From the NCBI RefSeq assembly GCF_003284895.1, contig NZ_QMDV01000002.1, forward strand, positions 310,001-374,000: 64,000 bases of DNA, given 5' to 3'. Source of the stretch: Pontibacter arcticus (GTDB lineage: Bacteria; Bacteroidota; Bacteroidia; Cytophagales; Hymenobacteraceae). The notes beneath the pieces are model-generated. The model worked only from the letters and a program-made list of their open reading frames with translations. It did not search any database and was not told where the DNA came from. Below are positions 14,302 through 22,947 of the stretch, one piece after another; position 1 is the stretch's first letter; every line of letters starts with the position of its first letter. The position numbers and the translations under genes were made by a program.

Positions 14302-17300
14302 TTATTTTATAGCGAGGCTCGGGTTAAACGAGATCTCTATTCTGCAGCCTTTACCTGGGGCTGTCTGGATGTCAAACTTTCCATCCAGCAGGTTTACCCG
14401 GTTCTTTATACTTTTTAGACCGACACCGTCTTGCTTCTGAAGGTCATCCTCGGCTATGCCTTTACCGTTATCCTGTACTCTCAGAAGTATATTTTCGCTT
14501 TCCTGAGTTAGTGCTATTGTTGCTCTGGTGGCACCCGAATGCTTTACAACATTGTTAAGCAACTCCTGTATGATCCGGTACAAGGAGAGGGATGTATTAT
14601 AGTTTAGCGTCGCTTCAGGAATCGCGAAAGAGGACGTAATTTTCAGGTGCGGGTTCTTGAAGCGGGCGAATATTTCTTCCAGCGCTACTTTCAATCCAAA
14701 TTCCTTCAGTACGGAGGGTGTGAGCTCAAAAGAAATATTACGGGTAATCTGGATGCCTTCTTTCAGGAATTGGTCCACGCTTTCTTTTACCTTTTTCTGC
14801 TGAACTGTAGCTGGTGCCAGGTTATCGAGCCTGAGCTTTGCTGCATACAATATCTGGCCCAGGCCGTTGTGCAGCGCCTCAGATATCCTGCTCCGCTCTT
14901 CTTCCTGTGTCTGAAGTATGGTATTAAGGGTGCCGCGCTGCTGCGATAGGTTAAGTCTTATAGTAGCCTGTTCTGCGTCTTTCTGATCCTGTATGTCTGT
15001 AGCCGTCCCGATCCAGAGGGTTATTTCACCGTTATCATTCTTTACAGGTACATCTTTTATCAAATGCAGGCGGTACTTGTTATCAGCTTTACGAAGGAGG
15101 CGCGCCTGTGCATTGTGTACTTTACCGGTTGCAAGGCAATGTTTGAAATCAGGCATAATTTTTTTCAGATCATCTGGGTGAAAAACCTTCTGCCAGCCCC
15201 AGCCTTCCGACTCTTTTTCCGAAAGGCCCGTGTAATCATACCATAATTTATTAAAGGAATTGTTCTCACCGTTGGGTTTATTTGTCCAGGTAATATGCGG
15301 TACAGCTTCCAGTAATTCTTTAAACCTGTCAGCGCTTTCACGCAGCTCTTCCTGTTGTGTCAGTAAAGCCTGTTCATTCAGCTTACGATCGGTTATATCC
15401 TGCAGGGTAAGCACCAGGCCATCGCCAAACTTAACGGCCGTTACATGTAACCATACCTGCTTCTGGTTTATCTCCTGCAACATTTCCAGATCAATAGCCT
15501 TTCCAGAGTTTACAACCTCTACCATCTCCTCAAACATGCCTTGTTCCATTAACTTAGGGTAGGTATTCCAGAGGGTGCGGTCATTCAGTTTACTTTGGGG
15601 TTTATCAAACAGGTCTTGTGCTTTCTGATTTACCGTACTGATGCCGAAATCTATCACCTGGTTAATAGCAGACCTGACCGATTTTAACGCAAGTATGGCA
15701 TTGGGCGAGCTCTGAAAGATACCGGCATGCAGCAGGTGCATGGTCTTAAGTTCGTTTATCTGAACAAAAATGATGATGGCTCCGTCAATTTTACGATCCT
15801 GGGTAATATAGGGCAGCATGCGCATCTGGTACCAGACGCCGTTCTTATCCTGCAGTTCTCTTTCTATTACCTGGTTGTTGTTTATAACCAGCTTTATATC
15901 ATCCGTTAATTTGTCGTAACGCAGGTTGTTGGATATATGGTCGATTGAACGCCCTATGTCGCTTTCTATCAGGTTGATGAGACGTGTGGCGGAAGGAGTG
16001 TACTTTCGGATAATCAGTCTGCGGTCAACAAAAATCTGCCCGATATCGGTACTCCTGAAATAATTGTTCAGGTCATCATCGAGCTCAATCAGCGCTTTAA
16101 TTTTGTACTGATGCTCGGTGTTGATGGTGTGCAGTTCCTCGTTCAGCGACTGTAGTTCTTCGTTGGTACTTTGCAGCTCTTCGTTCGAGGAAAGCAGTTC
16201 TTCGTTAGTACTTTGCAGTTCCTCGTTTGATGTTTCAAGTTCTTCCACTACAGCTTGCAGGTCGTCTTTGGTATACTGCAGTTCCTGCTCCAGCTCATCC
16301 ACGCGGCTCTTGTACTGGCCTTCGCTCACGATCACGACCTGTTCCGGCTTCAGCGGAATGCGTGGTTGCTCTTCCGAAAACAAAACAAGTATATAACGCT
16401 GCAACTGCTTTTTCTCTACCAGATACGGCTTCACCACCACATTTATATACCGGAGTTGATTTTCCTGGTGCACCTGAATGTTATGCGCTACTACTTTTTC
16501 TTTTTCGGTGATGGCTTTGCGCAGCATGGCACCCAGGCTAACGGCCAGGTCCTGGGGTACAAGTTTCAGGAGGTTAAAGGTAAAGCTCTGTTCAGGCAGG
16601 TCCAGAAATTTTTTGAACTTGCCGGCAGCGTGCAGCACATCAAAGCTCTCATCTACATAAACAGCCGCATAGCCATACTCTTCCAGCACCGTTTCGCTTA
16701 GCAGTTCGTTAAAACTATGCTGTAAGATCTGCTTCGCCGTCAGGTCCCTGGATTGAGAAGGAAGTGATGTTACAAGCGGCCGCTTGCTCAGGTTACCGGT
16801 AAACGATTCTGAAAGCCCCAACGACCGTGCAGGTTCAGCGCTCCGGAAGACCTTCCATTTCTTGTTTACTTCTTCAAAGCTTTTCAGGTCGCCCACACTT
16901 TCGCTGGAACCCAGGAAAAGGTAACCATGCAGCGATAAGGCGTAATGGAATTTCCCGATCACTCTTTTCTGTAGCATCGGATTGAGGTAGATGAGCATGT
17001 TGCGGCAGCTTACCAGGTCAATTCTGCTGAAAGGTGGATCGTTGGTAACATTGTGCGGCGAGAATATCACCAAGCGGCGCACGCGCTGTGCAACTCTGTA
17101 CTTGCCTTCTTCTCTCACAAAATAATCATGGAGCCTGTCTTCCGAAACATCTGTTAAACTGCTTTTGGTGTATAAACCTTTACTGGCAAAGTCCAGCGCT
17201 TCGCGGTCTATGTCGGAGGCAAATATCTTAACTTCGAGCTCCTTTTTTACTTTATCCATATACTCCCGCACCAATATGGCAATAGAGTATGCTTCCTCGC

Positions 17301-18291
17301 CGGTAGAGCAGCCGGCCACCCAAATGCGCAACTGGTCGTTGGCCCGTTTGCGGTCGATAAGGTCCGGTAAAATAGTGCTGTCCAGAAAGGAGTAGGCTTC
17401 CTCATCCCTGAAAAATTTGGTAACCCCGATCAGAAATTCCTTGCCAAGCGTTTCCACTTCTTCGGCGTTCATGTTCAGATAATCCAGGTAATCGCTGAAA
17501 TTATTGATGCCTTTAATGTTCATGCGCCGGCTGATGCGCCGTATAATAGTAGGTTGTTTGTAGTTGCTGAAATCAATGCCGGTCTGCCCGTTAACCAGGT
17601 CCAGAATCTGGAAAAAAGTAGCTTCGGCTTCGCTGTCTGCCAGTTCTATTAGTTTGCCGTTAAAAGGGCCTAGTTTTATGTAATCCAATATTTCTGCGGA
17701 CATCAGTTCTGGTGGGAGAATATAATCGACATAACCCGAGTTGATGGCACTGCGTGGCATCCCATCGAACCGGGCTGTGGTAGGGTCTTGCACAAGCACA
17801 AGGCCTCCTTCTTTTTTAATGGCTTCAATGCCTTTTGTGCCATCGGTACCGGTACCCGAAAGTATAACACCAATAGCACGCTGCTTTTTATCCTGTGCCA
17901 GCGACATAAAAAAAGTATCGACCGTCTGGGTGCGGTTCAGGTTTGTTTTATCCTTTAAACTGAACCGGTTATTTTCGATGGTAAGTTCTTTTGTGCTTGG
18001 AATAACGTAAACGCGATTTGGTAAAAGGGGCGCATCGTGTTCTGCTTCCTGTACTTTCAGGGCCGAGTATTGTTCCAGTATTTCCGTTAACAGACTGCGG
18101 TATTCCGAGGAAATATGCTGTACGATAACGTAGGCTACATTATCCTGCGGAATAGTACTAAACATGGCTTCGAGGGCTTGCAAGCCGCCGGCAGAGGCTC
18201 CGATGCCGATCACGTATAATCTATTATCCCTACTTTTTGCCTCCTGTTTTTCCGAACCTCTATCGTTCGTTTTTTTAGTTGCTTTTGCCAT
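14302..18291 (-). CDS. CheB-CheR-PAS hybrid kinase with HisKA_3 transmitter
   Basis: A 1329-residue cytoplasmic protein. CheB domain (about 24-210): Ser33 (GASAGG), His59, Asp150 (GTGTDGT). CheR domain (about 225-485): SAM motif [12 protein letters not shown] coiled coil of SNEEL/TNEEL repeats (about 680-730) follows, then a PAS_10-like domain, another PAS and a PAS_3-like domain near 1000-1100. The transmitter is HisKA_3 type with His1141 (EALHNGLGQ), followed by a HATPase with NNVVKHSG and DNGKGI. This differs from the HisKA transmitter of the kinase at 1030, although the front two thirds are homologous. HisKA_3 kinases typically phosphorylate NarL-type regulators, and one is encoded at 13058. 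It is divergent from a stand-alone CheB gene across 200 bp. Confidence 0.93.
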
Positions 18292-18491
18292 GCCCTGCCT
18301 TTAACCCAATTACATTTTATAGCTGCCAATTTACCAAATTATACTATACAAAAATGGGCGGGCCACCAGGTAGCTGAAGTACTTTACGGATTAATACGTA
18401 GCCATTTTGGTTTAACACTTCATTTTAAAGCCCGTACACTAGTGAACTTTCCACTAAACTGGTGCTGCTACAGGTAAACTAATAGCGAAGT

Positions 18492-19532
18492 ATGAAAGAA
18501 CACAAACCAAAGATTATTGTTGTAGGAACATCAGCGGGAGGGATGCAGGCTTTACTTAAGTTATTTGCTCCATTACCCCAAAACCTGCCTGCTTCCATTT
18601 TTATAGTGCAGCACATCAGTTTAGATTCATCTGCTCCATTTCTGGTAGATCGCCTGAACAAACACACAAAGCTTACCTGCAAAGTGGCTGTGCATGAAGA
18701 AGAGTTCGAGCCGGGCACCGTTTACTTTGCACCTCCAGATAAGCATCTGTTGCTAAACGGTACCAGGATGCTGGTTGTAAAAGGGCCACGAGAGAACCAG
18801 TTCAGGCCTGCTATCGATCCTTTATTCCGTTCTGCGGCGGCACACCACGGGGCCAATGTAATGGGCATTATTTTAACGGGCTTTATGAGTGATGGCGTAA
18901 TTGGGATGGAATGTGTGAAGAGGTGTGGCGGCCTGACCATAGTACAGCACCCCGACGATGCCGAGTTTCCTGTATTGCCTGAAAATGTGATCCGGCAGGT
19001 AGAACTGGACTATGTAGTGCCCGTAAGCGAAATGGGAATAATAGTGGAAGAATTGGCAAGCCAGCCTTTACAGGAATCGTTAACAGTGCCGGCAGATATA
19101 CGGCAGGAGGCTTTAATTGCAGAACGAGTTATGAGCAGCGCAACACAAACCAGCATAGAAGATTTAGATAAAGCAGGAAGCCGCACAGCCTACAGTTGCC
19201 CTGATTGTGGGGGCGGTTTGTGGGAGCTATCCCAGGAAGGTACTATTGTGCGGTACAGATGCCACTCCGGCCACGCTTATTCCCAGGAATCCCTGTTAAC
19301 GGGTATGTCTAATTCGTTGGAAGAAACGCTTTGGGTTGCCTTAAGAACCCTGGAAGAGCGACGGAATATTTTACAGAAAATGAGCCAGAATGAATTTCTG
19401 AAAAATAACCAACGATGGAGTGCGATGCAGGACGAACGCATTGATGAAATGAAGGTGCACATTGAGCGCTTACGGCAACTGCTTTCCAGGTCTGCTGAAG
19501 AAGATGAAGAACATCTGACTGAGCTGGGCTAA
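18492..19532 (+). CDS. Stand-alone CheB-type methylesterase with C-terminal zinc-ribbon-like domain
   Basis: A 346-residue protein. The CheB domain has Ser14 (GTSAGG), His41 and Asp134 (GFMSDG) but no receiver domain. The C-terminal part has CPDC (236-239) and RCHSGH (Cys257, His261), a probable zinc-binding pair seen in this CheB subfamily, followed by a helical SLEETLWVALRTLEERR segment. No MCP, CheA or CheW genes lie nearby, so it probably acts in a non-chemotaxis pathway with the divergent CheB-CheR kinase. It shares a 200-bp promoter region with that kinase. Confidence 0.9.
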   Translation: MKEHKPKIIVVGTSAGGMQALLKLFAPLPQNLPASIFIVQHISLDSSAPFLVDRLNKHTKLTCKVAVHEEEFEPGTVYFAPPDKHLLLNGTRMLVVKGPRENQFRPAIDPLFRSAAAHHGANVMGIILTGFMSDGVIGMECVKRCGGLTIVQHPDDAEFPVLPENVIRQVELDYVVPVSEMGIIVEELASQPLQESLTVPADIRQEALIAERVMSSATQTSIEDLDKAGSRTAYSCPDCGGGLWELSQEGTIVRYRCHSGHAYSQESLLTGMSNSLEETLWVALRTLEERRNILQKMSQNEFLKNNQRWSAMQDERIDEMKVHIERLRQLLSRSAEEDEEHLTELG

Positions 19533-19760: not shown

Positions 19761-20177
19761 ATGCCGGAATCTGAAGCTGTTCATGCAAATGGAATTTATT
19801 CCAAAACGCCATATAACGGTAATTATAGCTACATCATGGATACCTGCCGCACCCAGCTTTTAAAGGAGTTGCACCAATTGTCTCTAGCATTTTGTGATAA
19901 CAACACACTTTTGCTTAAAAAAACTGAGGGCGTGTTACACTGCCAGTTTTTGTATCATGGGCTTGCAAATACAACCGTCACGGTTAAATCAAGTGTGCTG
20001 GCTCAGGCACTCTGGCATATCAGCAGCCTTGGTATTATTGAAGGTGCCGACTATCTTGTTGTTAAAAACGGATTCAGTAAATTTTGCCTGCATGTTAAAA
20101 CGCTGCAGCTTTACGCAGAACTTAGCTCTCATCATCCTGCTCTTACACTTGCACCACAAAACCTGCTGGTAGCATAA
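19761..20177 (+). CDS. Hypothetical soluble protein
   Basis: A 138-residue protein with no signal peptide, membrane span or motif that I recognise. The alternating pattern in the middle (GVLHCQFLYHGL, NTTVTVKSSVLAQAL) suggests a mixed alpha/beta fold. A second in-frame ATG (MDTCRTQL, about residue 26) is a possible alternative start. It is convergent with kaiB and downstream of the stand-alone CheB gene with a separate leader. It may be lineage-specific. Confidence 0.5.
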   Translation: MPESEAVHANGIYSKTPYNGNYSYIMDTCRTQLLKELHQLSLAFCDNNTLLLKKTEGVLHCQFLYHGLANTTVTVKSSVLAQALWHISSLGIIEGADYLVVKNGFSKFCLHVKTLQLYAELSSHHPALTLAPQNLLVA

Positions 20178-20278: not shown

Positions 20279-20560
20279 TTACTTGTGCATACTAGAGATA
20301 CCCAGACCTGCCAACACACGGCTTCTTACATTTAAAGCACCTATAATACGGTTAACAGGGGTAGGCATCATTCTGATCAAGGTAGGAATAGCTATAATTC
20401 CAGCTTCTTCGGCTTTTTCCGGATATTCTTGTATATCAATGATTTCCAGGTCATAATTGTCATTTAAATTTTCTTTACAGATCTTAAGTAGGGTGTCCAC
20501 GGCCTCAACAGAATTGGGGGTGTGTCCGTTTATAAAGAGCTGAAATACATGCATGCTCAT
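20279..20560 (-). CDS. kaiB: KaiB-like circadian-clock-type protein
   Basis: A 93-residue thioredoxin-fold protein that matches cyanobacterial KaiB motif for motif: GHTPNS (family GNTPNS), a central IPTL, the PVNRIIG block (family PVRRIIG) and VLAGLGI. In cyanobacteria the fold-switched form of KaiB binds the KaiC CI ring and sequesters KaiA. The length is slightly shorter than the cyanobacterial protein because the acidic C-terminal tail is absent. It lies 63 bp downstream of kaiC on the same strand, so the two are probably co-transcribed. No kaiA is present. A second ATG two codons in is also a possible start. Confidence 0.93.
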   Translation of the reverse strand: MSMHVFQLFINGHTPNSVEAVDTLLKICKENLNDNYDLEIIDIQEYPEKAEEAGIIAIPTLIRMMPTPVNRIIGALNVRSRVLAGLGISSMHK

Positions 20561-20623
20561 TTTTTGTTTTGGCTAATAGTGCCGGCACCTGCCGGAAAGT
20601 TTAAGGATGAGCTAAAAGGAATA

Positions 20624-22087
20624 TTATTCAAGTTTAATGAGCATCGGGTTGCCTGTCAGGATGCCGCTGATACCTTCAAATTGGTTGCCGATTTCGGCGC
20701 CGCTATCTGTAATACAAAATTTACGGATCGAGGTATCGTGTTTGGAGCCGCGCATTTTAAGTACGGCTATACTTCGCTGCATTTCCCCGGACATTTCTAC
20801 ATAACGCAGCAAAATGATGGTATCCGTGATGGGAGAGATGTTGCCTTCCGTATCCGAAGTTCCGCCTGCCAACAACGGCGTATTTGAAGTAAACATGCCT
20901 GTAATCTGCTGGTGTTTTAAGTAGGCGGTAAAGGCAATAATAAACTCCCGGAAACCTTTATCAGACGATGTGCGCGATAAAGCAGAAAGGCTGTCGATGG
21001 CAATTCTGTCCGGCTTAAAGGTTTTGACAATGTCTTGTATATTGATAAAATGATCTTCTAAAGAGGAAACTTCCGGGTACACGCAAATAACCTTCAGCAG
21101 TCCTTCATCTTCCAGTTGCTTGAAATCGATGCCCCAGCCGGCTGCGTTGCGGAATAATTGCTCGCTGCTTTCCTCGAAGGCCATAAGCAGGCAGCGTTCA
21201 TTATTCTCGCGGATACCGTTTACAAAGTTGGCAACCATCAGCGTTTTACCAGCGCCTATGGCTCCTGATACCAAGTTAATAGAACCTTTAAAGAAACCGC
21301 CATTTATCATCTTATTAAGTGCAGCAATGCCGGAAGTTACACGCTCATCAGATGATGTATGCTTCAGGTTCATGGCTGACAATGGGATGATAACGATAGC
21401 TTTTTCCACGTTGATTGAGAATGGGTTTTCGCCTTTCTCGTGGTTGCTTCCTCTGAACTTTAATATCTCGATGGTTCTGCGGCGCTTTTCGTTATGCAGC
21501 ACATTCCGAAGTAAAACCACGTTGTCGGTTAAAAATTCTTCTACCCCAAAACGTGTTATTTTGCCATACTCTTCCAGTCTTTCGGCCGTGATAATAGAAG
21601 TGGCGCCTAATCGCGACAAAGTTAAGGCAACCTGGATCAGTTCGCGGCGGATAGTGTGTATCTCTTCATGAAACTGCGTAAAGATGCTGCCGATCGAGTC
21701 GATCACAACCCGCTGCGCATTGCATCGTTTCACGGCTCTCTCCAGTCGTATCCTGAAAGCGCTCAGATCAAAATCGCCTACTGCTATAATAATTTCTTCT
21801 TTGGGAGCTGCATCCAAGAATATCCATTTCCCTTCTTTTTCCCAGGTATCGATATCCCAGTTAAAGCTTTTCAGGTTTTTACGGATATCATCTACCTGTT
21901 CTTCAAATGTTACAAAAACACCTGCCTGCCCGAACAGTTCTATGCCCATTGCCAGAAACTGTGCTGCAAATAAAGTTTTAGCGCTACCAGAGCTACCAGC
22001 CACCAGCGTGGTTCGGCCTAAAGGTAATCCGCCATGCGAGATATGATCGAATGATGTATTTCCGGTTTCTAGTTTTTGAATGGTCAT
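20624..22087 (-). CDS. kaiC: KaiC-like double RecA-domain ATPase
   Basis: A 487-residue protein with two KaiC/RecA domains. The first has a Walker A variant GSSGSAKT and the catalytic pair FEE; the second has GAIGAGKT and FEESSEQL, followed by IAIDSLSAL. In cyanobacterial KaiC the CII loop carries Thr426, Ser431 and Thr432. The aligned loop here keeps Thr413 and Ser418, but the residue matching Thr432 is Pro419 (ISPITD versus ISTITD; codon 20831-20833). The protein also stops about 20 residues after the KMRGSKHD region's end helix and so lacks the C-terminal tail that binds KaiA. It is transcribed with kaiB. ATP hydrolysis is likely, but a full two-site phosphorylation cycle is not. Confidence 0.93.
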   Translation of the reverse strand: MTIQKLETGNTSFDHISHGGLPLGRTTLVAGSSGSAKTLFAAQFLAMGIELFGQAGVFVTFEEQVDDIRKNLKSFNWDIDTWEKEGKWIFLDAAPKEEIIIAVGDFDLSAFRIRLERAVKRCNAQRVVIDSIGSIFTQFHEEIHTIRRELIQVALTLSRLGATSIITAERLEEYGKITRFGVEEFLTDNVVLLRNVLHNEKRRRTIEILKFRGSNHEKGENPFSINVEKAIVIIPLSAMNLKHTSSDERVTSGIAALNKMINGGFFKGSINLVSGAIGAGKTLMVANFVNGIRENNERCLLMAFEESSEQLFRNAAGWGIDFKQLEDEGLLKVICVYPEVSSLEDHFINIQDIVKTFKPDRIAIDSLSALSRTSSDKGFREFIIAFTAYLKHQQITGMFTSNTPLLAGGTSDTEGNISPITDTIILLRYVEMSGEMQRSIAVLKMRGSKHDTSIRKFCITDSGAEIGNQFEGISGILTGNPMLIKLE

Positions 22088-22380: not shown

Positions 22381-22947
22381 TTACAGGTTTTCGAGCACGC
22401 CTTCGTGTTTCTCTTTTAAGTGCCTGTAAAAAGACGGCGATATACCTGTTACCTTTTTAAACTGACTGGATAAATGCGAAACACTACTATAGTGAAGCTG
22501 ATCGGCAATAGCGGTCAGCGAAAGTTCATCGTAAAATAAGAGCTCTTTGGCTTTCTCTATTTTATGAATGATGATGAATTGCTGTATGGTGATGCCTTTC
22601 ACTTCTGAAAAAATGCTGGCCAGGTAATTATAATTATAGCCCAGTTTTTCGCTGATGTAAACAGAATAATTTACTTTTGGCTGCTCTTCTGAGGAGCGAA
22701 TCAGGTCTGTGATAAGCTTTTTGATTTTTTCGATCAGCTGGCGCTTGCTGTCATCCAGCATTTCGAGGCCGGTCTTGCTGAGGTTCTCTTTTAGCTGCTC
22801 TAACTGTAGATCGGTTATCTCTTTGTGCAGTTCCACTACGCCGAGGTCTACTACCACATACTCTGCCTGCAATCCCAGCCGGATCAGTTCCTGCTGGACA
22901 AGTGCTTTGCAGCGATTACTGACCATGTATTTAATGTATAATTTCAT
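22381..22947 (-). CDS. AraC family transcriptional regulator
   Basis: A 188-residue regulator. The C-terminal half (about 85-180) holds an AraC double helix-turn-helix: LGYNYNYLASIFSEVKGI, IEKAKELL, LSLTAIADQLHYSSVSHLSSQFKK and GISPSFYR. The N-terminal 75 residues form a small alpha/beta region (KYMVSNRCKALVQQEL...) and not a cupin, so a ligand pocket of the usual AraC type is absent. This short type is common in Bacteroidota. It is divergent from nhaA across 512 bp and upstream of kaiC on the same strand with a 293-bp gap. The target genes are unknown. Confidence 0.88.
   Translation of the reverse strand: MKLYIKYMVSNRCKALVQQELIRLGLQAEYVVVDLGVVELHKEITDLQLEQLKENLSKTGLEMLDDSKRQLIEKIKKLITDLIRSSEEQPKVNYSVYISEKLGYNYNYLASIFSEVKGITIQQFIIIHKIEKAKELLFYDELSLTAIADQLHYSSVSHLSSQFKKVTGISPSFYRHLKEKHEGVLENL

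Follow-up and report, generated by a model that had tools for sequence, protein, structure and literature searches.

A kaiC-kaiB pair with a single canonical KaiC phosphosite and no detected KaiA in Pontibacter arcticus

The clock proteins KaiC and KaiB are encoded side by side in the window studied here, a stretch of 64,000 nucleotides from the genome of Pontibacter arcticus, a member of the Hymenobacteraceae (contig NZ_QMDV01000002.1, positions 310,001 to 374,000). Both genes lie on the minus strand, with 63 bp between kaiC and the downstream kaiB (Table 1). The host genome (3.77 Mb, completeness 99.94%) contains one KaiB. In cyanobacteria, phosphorylation of KaiC begins at Thr432 and proceeds to Ser431, and KaiB binds the pSer431/Thr432 form (PMC6378743, PMC2777353); KaiA binds the C-terminal tail of KaiC, residues 498-518 (PMC6549140). 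In this study, we describe a KaiC which has Pro in place of Thr432, keeps Ser431 and ends before the KaiA-binding tail. We hold with moderate confidence that it forms with KaiB a KaiA-free, one-site module, most likely reduced from a clock of the kaiA3-kaiB-kaiC type and acting as a switch.

Results

Phosphosites and catalytic residues of the KaiC

The kaiC product exceeds the NCBIfam circ_KaiC cut-off (TIGR02655, 546.25 bits) and matches PF06745 in two stretches. An AlphaFold2 model of it (predicted local distance difference test score, pLDDT, 81.5) reaches a template modelling (TM) score of about 0.9 to KaiC crystal structures. The best 50 structure matches are all KaiC (TM 0.84-0.92, query length), and Synechococcus elongatus KaiC 2gbl gives TM 0.92 at 52% identity. 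Among the least certain parts of this monomer model are loop 405-417 and the last 12 residues, the latter with pLDDT below 50.

Aligned with phmmer (HMMER) to a cyanobacterial-type KaiC of known structure, the query segment TEGNISPITD lies on TESHISTITD with no gap near the site. Pro419 is the equivalent of Thr432, Ser418 of Ser431 and Thr413 of Thr426. CII presents Ser418-Pro419 where an ordered two-site clock protein would have two adjacent phosphorylatable residues. The window KaiC retains the lysine of each Walker A motif and the equivalents of E77/E78, E318/E319, K224/R226 and K457/R459. Throughout the 33 Hymenobacteraceae KaiCs compared, E77, E78, E318, E319, K294, T295, K457 and R459 are intact, and in all 33 His429 is lost, the residue in the window being Asn. 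The CI Walker A motif GSSGSAKT has Ala for Gly, as in 39 of 43 KaiCs from rows bearing KaiA3.

The C-terminal tail and the search for KaiA

The KaiC ends at a residue matching about S. elongatus 500; the A-loop segment is kept and the C-tail 498-518 is absent. A tail on an overlooked downstream extension is excluded, the stop codon following immediately after KLE. The Pfam model of KaiA, PF07688, gave zero matches in the P. arcticus genome, the only genome of the family on which it was run; of 14 control genomes, S. elongatus alone matches. PF07688 recognises only one of 11 KaiA3 C-terminal domains and is therefore insufficient by itself to exclude KaiA3, so a dedicated KaiA3 profile was built from the genes directly upstream of kaiB in relatives outside the family. 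This profile found nothing in 204 Hymenobacteraceae genomes, P. arcticus included. In a check on nine genomes it matched six, namely three profile donors, one close kin of a donor and two Bacteroidota that were not donors (G103 and G182); the silent three were the KaiA3-less test cases L053, L054 and L056. In a second set of nine it matched five and was silent in L055, the two Kutzneria genomes (L058, L059) and L150. A distant kaiA elsewhere in the P. arcticus genome is excluded by PF07688 and the KaiA3 profile together.

The original prediction, made from the DNA letters, had placed Pro419 at the Thr432 position with Ser431 and Thr426 retained, and had described the KaiA-gripping tail as missing and no kaiA as nearby. 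The alignment to the solved KaiC and the codons at the three positions agree with the former (Thr at 432 was looked for and Pro found instead), and the stop codon after KLE with the loss of the tail. No kaiA homologue turned up elsewhere in the genome with either profile. It had concluded that the ordered two-site cycle cannot run as in cyanobacteria, a view supported by the lack of any KaiA found, by the single canonical phosphosite and by the S. elongatus single-site mutants T432A and S431A, which are arrhythmic (PMC2777353). It had further suggested a possible single-site timer or stress switch; between these two the AraC-type gene, the only conserved neighbour observed, gives no decision.

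Relatives and their phosphosite states

A KaiC of the window's type was found in 34 of 204 Hymenobacteraceae genomes. With a looser cut among nearer relatives, 24 of 99 genomes had a KaiC, counting P. arcticus and five KaiC2-like matches, and phylum-wide draws gave three of 395, P. arcticus included. Outside relatives were collected by one scan of named genomes (36 loci) and by two sets of draws, one in the phylum of a Desulfobulbaceae genome (5/395) and one in that of a Chloroflexaceae genome (27/331), centre genomes included. Rows were dropped as repeat fetches of a single genome (L005-L023, L068-L078, L104-L106, L108, L124, L029, L060, L038, L039, L040, L041), as a near copy of L109 (L110), for a broken kaiC with an unreadable site (L101), as contig-edge fragments (L112, L061), as KaiC2 (L026, L027) or as distant partial matches (L062-L064); the KaiC2 rows L024, L025 and L028 served as outgroup only. 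The fragment L112 has Ser-Thr, a longer C-terminus and KaiA3 in its genome.

The state at positions 431 and 432 was then compared with the presence of KaiA3. In 42 of the 43 KaiA3-bearing rows, a kaiA3 match lies inside the locus, upstream; the 43rd, L136, has a partial match on the same contig and further copies elsewhere in the genome. All 43 keep Thr426, and 42 are Ser-Thr and one Ser-Ser (L047). Together with three KaiC1 rows, for which KaiA was assumed and not checked row by row, 45 of 46 are Ser-Thr and one is Ser-Ser. Forty rows are KaiA3-less; seven of them lie outside Hymenobacteraceae and were judged, genome by genome, with the KaiA3 profile only, and four of the seven (L053-L056) are metagenome assemblies, perhaps incomplete. 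One site is missing in 35 of the 40 (Ser-Pro in 24, Ala-Thr in 7, Ala-Ser in 3 and Ser-Ala in 1); the other five are Ser-Thr. The 33 Hymenobacteraceae rows comprise 23 Ser-Pro, 7 Ala-Thr, 1 Ala-Ser and 2 Ser-Thr. Each Ser-Pro row has Ser at 431 and retains Thr426, and each of the eight Ala rows has Thr (7) or Ser (1) at 432. Thr426 is kept in seven of these eight, L097 being without both Ser431 and Thr426. In the other KaiA3-less lineages, single-site states occur as Ser-Ala and Ser-Pro in L053/L056 and as Ala-Ser in Kutzneria. Counted by rows, site loss goes strongly with the absence of KaiA, but the number of independent events is small and the association is not established statistically. 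On a quick tree of 86 rows, site loss takes three changes and KaiA absence six.

Beyond reference column 477, the Hymenobacteraceae KaiCs have 3-13 residues versus 21-36 in KaiA3-bearing rows. Gene order differs likewise, with kaiB directly downstream of kaiC in 33/33 Hymenobacteraceae loci and upstream in KaiA3-bearing rows.

Some of the sampled loci show arrangements of their own. Published KaiA3 is a receiver-domain chimera. In L044 (1562-3535) and L046 (3694-5655), the gene immediately preceding kaiB-kaiC encodes a MASE3 membrane sensor and two PAS domains, followed by a KaiA3-type C-terminal domain. Both rows are in alignment A2, and Pfam KaiA scores 16.5 bits in L046, under its cut-off; such a fusion could act as a membrane sensor feeding straight into KaiC. 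In L043 (4506-5681), L051 (4374-5663) and L047 (1132-2118), receiver plus PAS, or PAS alone, precedes the KaiA-like domain. In the two Kutzneria KaiB-KaiC pairs, which have Ala-Ser at 431/432, the first CII catalytic Glu is replaced by Asp (ALDES).

Phylogeny and order of events

The window KaiC is 49-59% identical to KaiCs of KaiA3-bearing rows, 50% to KaiC1 and 88-90% to the Pontibacter KaiCs of its own clade. At columns fixed differently in KaiA3-linked KaiC and KaiC1, where the window shares one of the two states, it sides with KaiA3-linked KaiC in 23 of 28 and with KaiC1 in five. Besides the quick tree of 86 rows, there were a careful tree of 39 rows with the site's own columns left out, and a quick and a careful one of 41 rows. 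In the 39-row tree, Hymenobacteraceae are monophyletic (support 100/100). Their deepest branches are the two Ser-Thr rows, P. ramchanderi and Adhaeribacter (92/94 and 89/88, not starred). Next come two clades, one of eight rows in which residue 431 is Ala (99/97) and one of 23 Ser-Pro rows (96/90). The Ser-Pro clade consists of 17 Pontibacter and six rows from a single other genus, two of which bear the name Hymenobacter. The two Ser-Thr rows are already without tail and KaiA3, which places the site losses later. Within one family, Thr432 was lost in the window's clade and Ser431 in the sister clade, in opposite directions.

In the best careful tree of 41 rows, the family falls with KaiA3-linked KaiC, apart from KaiC1 (84/84), and lies nested among the KaiA3-linked KaiCs; the KaiA3-bearing rows L043 and L120 are placed outside the other 22 (85/95). 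Because of this nesting, a loss of KaiA3 and tail in Hymenobacteraceae is favoured over their never having been present.

The KaiB partner

Although well above the Pfam cut-off, the window KaiB stays under both NCBIfam cut-offs for circadian KaiB (76.9 versus 110 and 75.6 versus 145.3 bits). The Asp of the GDLS motif is replaced by Ala75 in all 34 Hymenobacteraceae KaiBs and is present in 53 of 54 other KaiBs linked to KaiC3 or KaiC1, with one gap. K57, G88 and D90 have been named as fold-switch residues of KaiB (PMC6989803), and positions 54, 85 and 87 of the window KaiB probably correspond to them. Gly54 occurs in 33/34 Hymenobacteraceae KaiBs versus 1/54 of the others (Lys 36/54, Arg 12/54). 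Gly87 is found in 34/34; in this column the remaining KaiBs show Asp (23), Asn (16), Gly (6), Glu (5), Ser (2) and Gln (1), with one further entry outside this listing. The AlphaFold2 model of KaiB has the thioredoxin-like, fold-switched topology. KaiB structures fill the first nine places among its matches, most of them fold-switch-stabilised or KaiC-bound, with scores of 0.83 for Legionella KaiB, 0.78 for 5jwo and 0.77 for 5jwr; the ground-state structure 1wwj ranks 38th with 0.43.

The earlier statement that KaiB and KaiC match their cyanobacterial relatives motif for motif does not hold for either protein. In KaiB, Ala replaces the GDLS Asp and Gly stands at two of the three fold-switch positions; in KaiC, His429 is Asn and four A-loop residues are exchanged (Glu487 to Ser, Arg488 to Gly, Thr495 to Met, Arg496 to Leu).

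Selection on the pair

For KaiC the median ratio of nonsynonymous to synonymous differences (pN/pS) is 0.077, and for KaiB 0.073, from 136 pairs of 17 Pontibacter genes with synonymous differences near saturation (pS 0.66-0.67). Among these 17, Pro419 is encoded by CCC (6), CCT (9) or CCG (2), Ser418 by four codons and Thr413 by three; the 23 Hymenobacteraceae KaiCs with Pro use CCC, CCT, CCG and CCA. Selection acting on the protein maintains Pro419, and Ser431 and the ATPase/kinase residues are under strong purifying selection. A chance mutation or sequencing error at codon 419 is excluded by Pro in 17/17 Pontibacter rows of the clade.

Discussion

The findings suggest how such a module might work. 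KaiC would still form a double-ring hexamer, and CII would phosphorylate Ser418 without KaiA at high ATP. With Pro at 432, the two canonical sites leave only an unphosphorylated and a pSer form, and there is therefore no ordered four-state cycle. The pSer-Pro form would mimic the pS431/T432 'evening' form to which KaiB binds in cyanobacteria. The altered KaiB, biased to the KaiC-binding fold, would read the phosphostate of Ser418 together with the CI ATPase. Rather than sustaining its own rhythm, such a module would act as a two-state switch or an hourglass whose setting depends on the ATP/ADP ratio, and in Pontibacter the adjacent AraC-type regulator would be a possible output.

Parallels exist among known systems. 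The KaiBC hourglass of Rhodobacter sphaeroides and Rhodopseudomonas palustris (PMC10076222, PMC4794148) is likewise KaiA-free and keeps KaiB; the R. sphaeroides pair needs no KaiA, and a change in the ATP/ADP ratio resets it (PMC10076222), a response that would be expected of the window's module as well. A KaiC2-type identity is excluded by the absence of a long C-terminal extension and of Ser-Ser sites: KaiC2 rows L024-L028 are 34-37% identical to the window KaiC, have Ser-Ser and mostly a long tail, with 90-96 residues past the reference column in L024-L027 and 23 in L028, versus 11 in the window. The KaiA3-KaiB3-KaiC3 system of Synechocystis (PMC11372060) is resembled in that the nearest KaiCs among those compared come from kaiA3-kaiB-kaiC loci, in the KaiB partner and in the catalytic sites. 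The kinship of the KaiC, which is favoured though not beyond doubt, is judged from kaiA3-linked KaiC rows other than Synechocystis KaiC3. The window differs from it in lacking KaiA3, the C-tail and the Thr432 equivalent, in its kaiC-kaiB order and in its altered KaiB. With the canonical KaiABC of S. elongatus the KaiC shares the double P-loop fold, Ser431 and Thr426, but it is without KaiA, without the KaiA-binding tail and with a single canonical phosphosite. In the engineered S. elongatus T432A, too, Ser431 and Thr426 are kept and Thr432 is gone. That protein is an arrhythmic laboratory mutant with KaiA and tail, whereas the state in the window is natural, conserved and has Pro instead of Ala (PMC2777353).

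As a tentative generalisation, we propose that KaiC without KaiA input needs no two phosphosites and may collapse to one in either direction, to an 'evening' half (Ser-Pro) or a 'morning' half (Ala-Thr), each conserved as a functioning one-bit switch together with a KaiB that has co-adapted and is pre-switched, and that other KaiA3-less lineages may have collapsed similarly and separately.

Several points weigh against these proposals. Site loss is no necessary consequence of the absence of KaiA, as five KaiA-less rows with Ser-Thr show (L054, L055, L150, P. ramchanderi and Adhaeribacter). An independent-pairs test, with two pairs on supported branches and six on all, gave no significance. Broken conserved columns were not significantly enriched in the phosphosite loop (2/9 versus 11/169 elsewhere, p 0.13; four groupings, p 0.13 to 0.38). 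The A-loop changes at 487 and 488 are no proof of KaiA-independence, because KaiA3-bearing KaiCs also commonly have Ser/Thr at 487 and Gly at 488. Support from the KaiB model for a fold-switch bias is weak (pLDDT 74.6, 13 close sequences, no ordinary-KaiB control). Synechocystis KaiC3 has autokinase activity without KaiA1, but was phosphorylated in vitro only with KaiA3 and dephosphorylated without it (PMC11372060), and KaiA-independent phosphorylation is therefore not to be presumed. Autophosphorylation, KaiB binding and timing of the window KaiC are inferred, and a Ser preceding Pro may be unsuited to phosphotransfer. Finally, the argument from pSer as the evening form fails for the family as a whole, since the sister clade keeps the other site.

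One alternative we regard as possible, if doubtful: a phosphorylation-independent ATPase device, whose function would depend on hydrolysis in CI and on the binding of KaiB, the phosphosites being relics in decay, so that either can be lost. The opposite losses within one family, the additional loss of Thr426 in L097 and the general loss of His429 would fit, as would the reports that KaiB binding speeds the R. sphaeroides ATPase whatever the phosphostate (PMC10076222) and that Synechocystis KaiC3 retained little phosphate without KaiA3 (PMC11372060). Decay agrees poorly, however, with the hydroxyl kept at the remaining site within each clade (23/23 Ser-Pro and 8/8 Ala rows) and with the nearly complete retention of Thr426. 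Thr426 itself might restore a two-acceptor cycle, phosphate shuttling between Ser418 and Thr413. Phosphate is seen on Thr426 in crystals of S431A and S431A/T432E and may be shared with S431, and every Ser-Pro row keeps the residue. We nevertheless think such a cycle quite improbable, as phosphate cannot sit on S431 and T426 simultaneously, and T432A, which still has T426, is arrhythmic in vivo (PMC2777353).

As to origin, the Hymenobacteraceae KaiC could be an old branch that separated prior to the arrival of KaiA; it would then have been without KaiA and tail from the beginning, and a phosphosite would be its only loss. Much of the tree backbone is unresolved, and by the approximately unbiased test a tree uniting all KaiA- and KaiA3-bearing rows is not rejected (p 0.19 careful, p 0.75 quick), which also counts against reduction. 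The best careful tree, with the family joined to KaiA3-linked KaiC and L043 and L120 outside the remainder, and the majority of informative columns speak for reduction from a kaiA3-kaiB-kaiC type clock, and we consider the old branch unlikely. That the pair is degenerate, heading for loss and without real function, is most improbable of all. Its presence in the family is patchy, and in L101 of the Hymenobacter genus group (G571:C1:2028298-2041314) kaiC is broken into two open stretches of 382 and 179 amino acids in different frames, with a kaiB frame adjoining; but pN/pS is about 0.08 over the 136 pairs with synonymous sites near saturation, and in 33/33 family members the catalytic residues are intact and kaiB directly follows.

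The strict order of two neighbouring phosphosites is a central question of the test-tube clock, and one-site mutants made in the laboratory are broken clocks. Hymenobacteraceae offer natural one-site KaiCs in both directions beside close relatives with two sites, a natural test of why a clock needs two. The link between KaiA, tail, second site and oscillation is thereby testable with few purified proteins. A 2017 survey singled out one group in this phylum as having only KaiB2/KaiC2 (PMC5520375); the phylum now gains a KaiC branch probably akin to kaiA3-linked KaiC. Among the matches listed in a search of the open-access literature (titles and abstract starts), nothing concerned Hymenobacteraceae KaiC or a natural loss of Thr432; subscription journals were mostly outside its scope, and novelty in print is for this reason not certain.

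Neighbouring genes

Table 1. Features of the kai locus in the window (positions within the window).
Feature	Position	Strand	Description and evidence
kaiC	20624..22087	minus	487 amino acids, two P-loop domains (CI, CII); PF06745 370.5 bits, TIGR02655 568.1 bits
kaiB	20279..20560	minus	93 amino acids; PF07689 84.6 bits, Pfam cut-off 27
Pro419 codon CCC	20831..20833	minus	Thr432 position; phmmer alignment and codon check
Ser418 codon TCT	20834..20836	minus	Ser431 position, remaining canonical phosphosite; alignment and codon check
Thr413 codon ACG	20849..20851	minus	Thr426 position; alignment and codon check
CI Walker A GSSGSAKT	21974..21997	minus	Alignment
CI catalytic Glu-Glu	21899..21904	minus	Equivalents of E77/E78; alignment
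CII Walker A GAIGAGKT	21242..21265	minus	Alignment
CII catalytic Glu-Glu	21170..21175	minus	Equivalents of E318/E319; alignment
A-loop equivalent SGILTGNPMLI, KLE, stop	20624..20668	minus	KaiA-binding C-tail missing; alignment
AraC-type regulator gene	22381..22947	minus	5' of kaiC; PF12833 64.6 bits
Divergent CheB-CheR-PAS-histidine kinase hybrid	14302-18291		1329 amino acids; next to kai pair
CheB-type protein gene	18492-19532		Next to kai pair

The genes around the pair (13-30 kb) give scattered open reading frame matches in three or four of 62 loci. A link to the CheB genes at 14302-19532 is excluded: the large one matches reading frames in four of the 62 other loci, and the CheB-type gene in none among the matches listed. 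A 138-amino-acid open frame 3' of kaiB on the other strand (19761-20177) matches no Pfam or NCBIfam family.

The AraC-type gene lies on the same strand 5' of kaiC in 17/17 Ser-Pro Pontibacter loci; no match to it occurs in the other loci of the family, which were retrieved with up to 6 kb of flanking sequence. Its conserved position suggests that it may be an output or partner of the kai pair. Related AraC genes also lie elsewhere in some of these loci, among the matches listed, and for this reason the role of output regulator is a lead only. The gene is full length in 16 of the 17; in P. aydingkolensis (L030) it is split over two frames, with kaiC and kaiB open.

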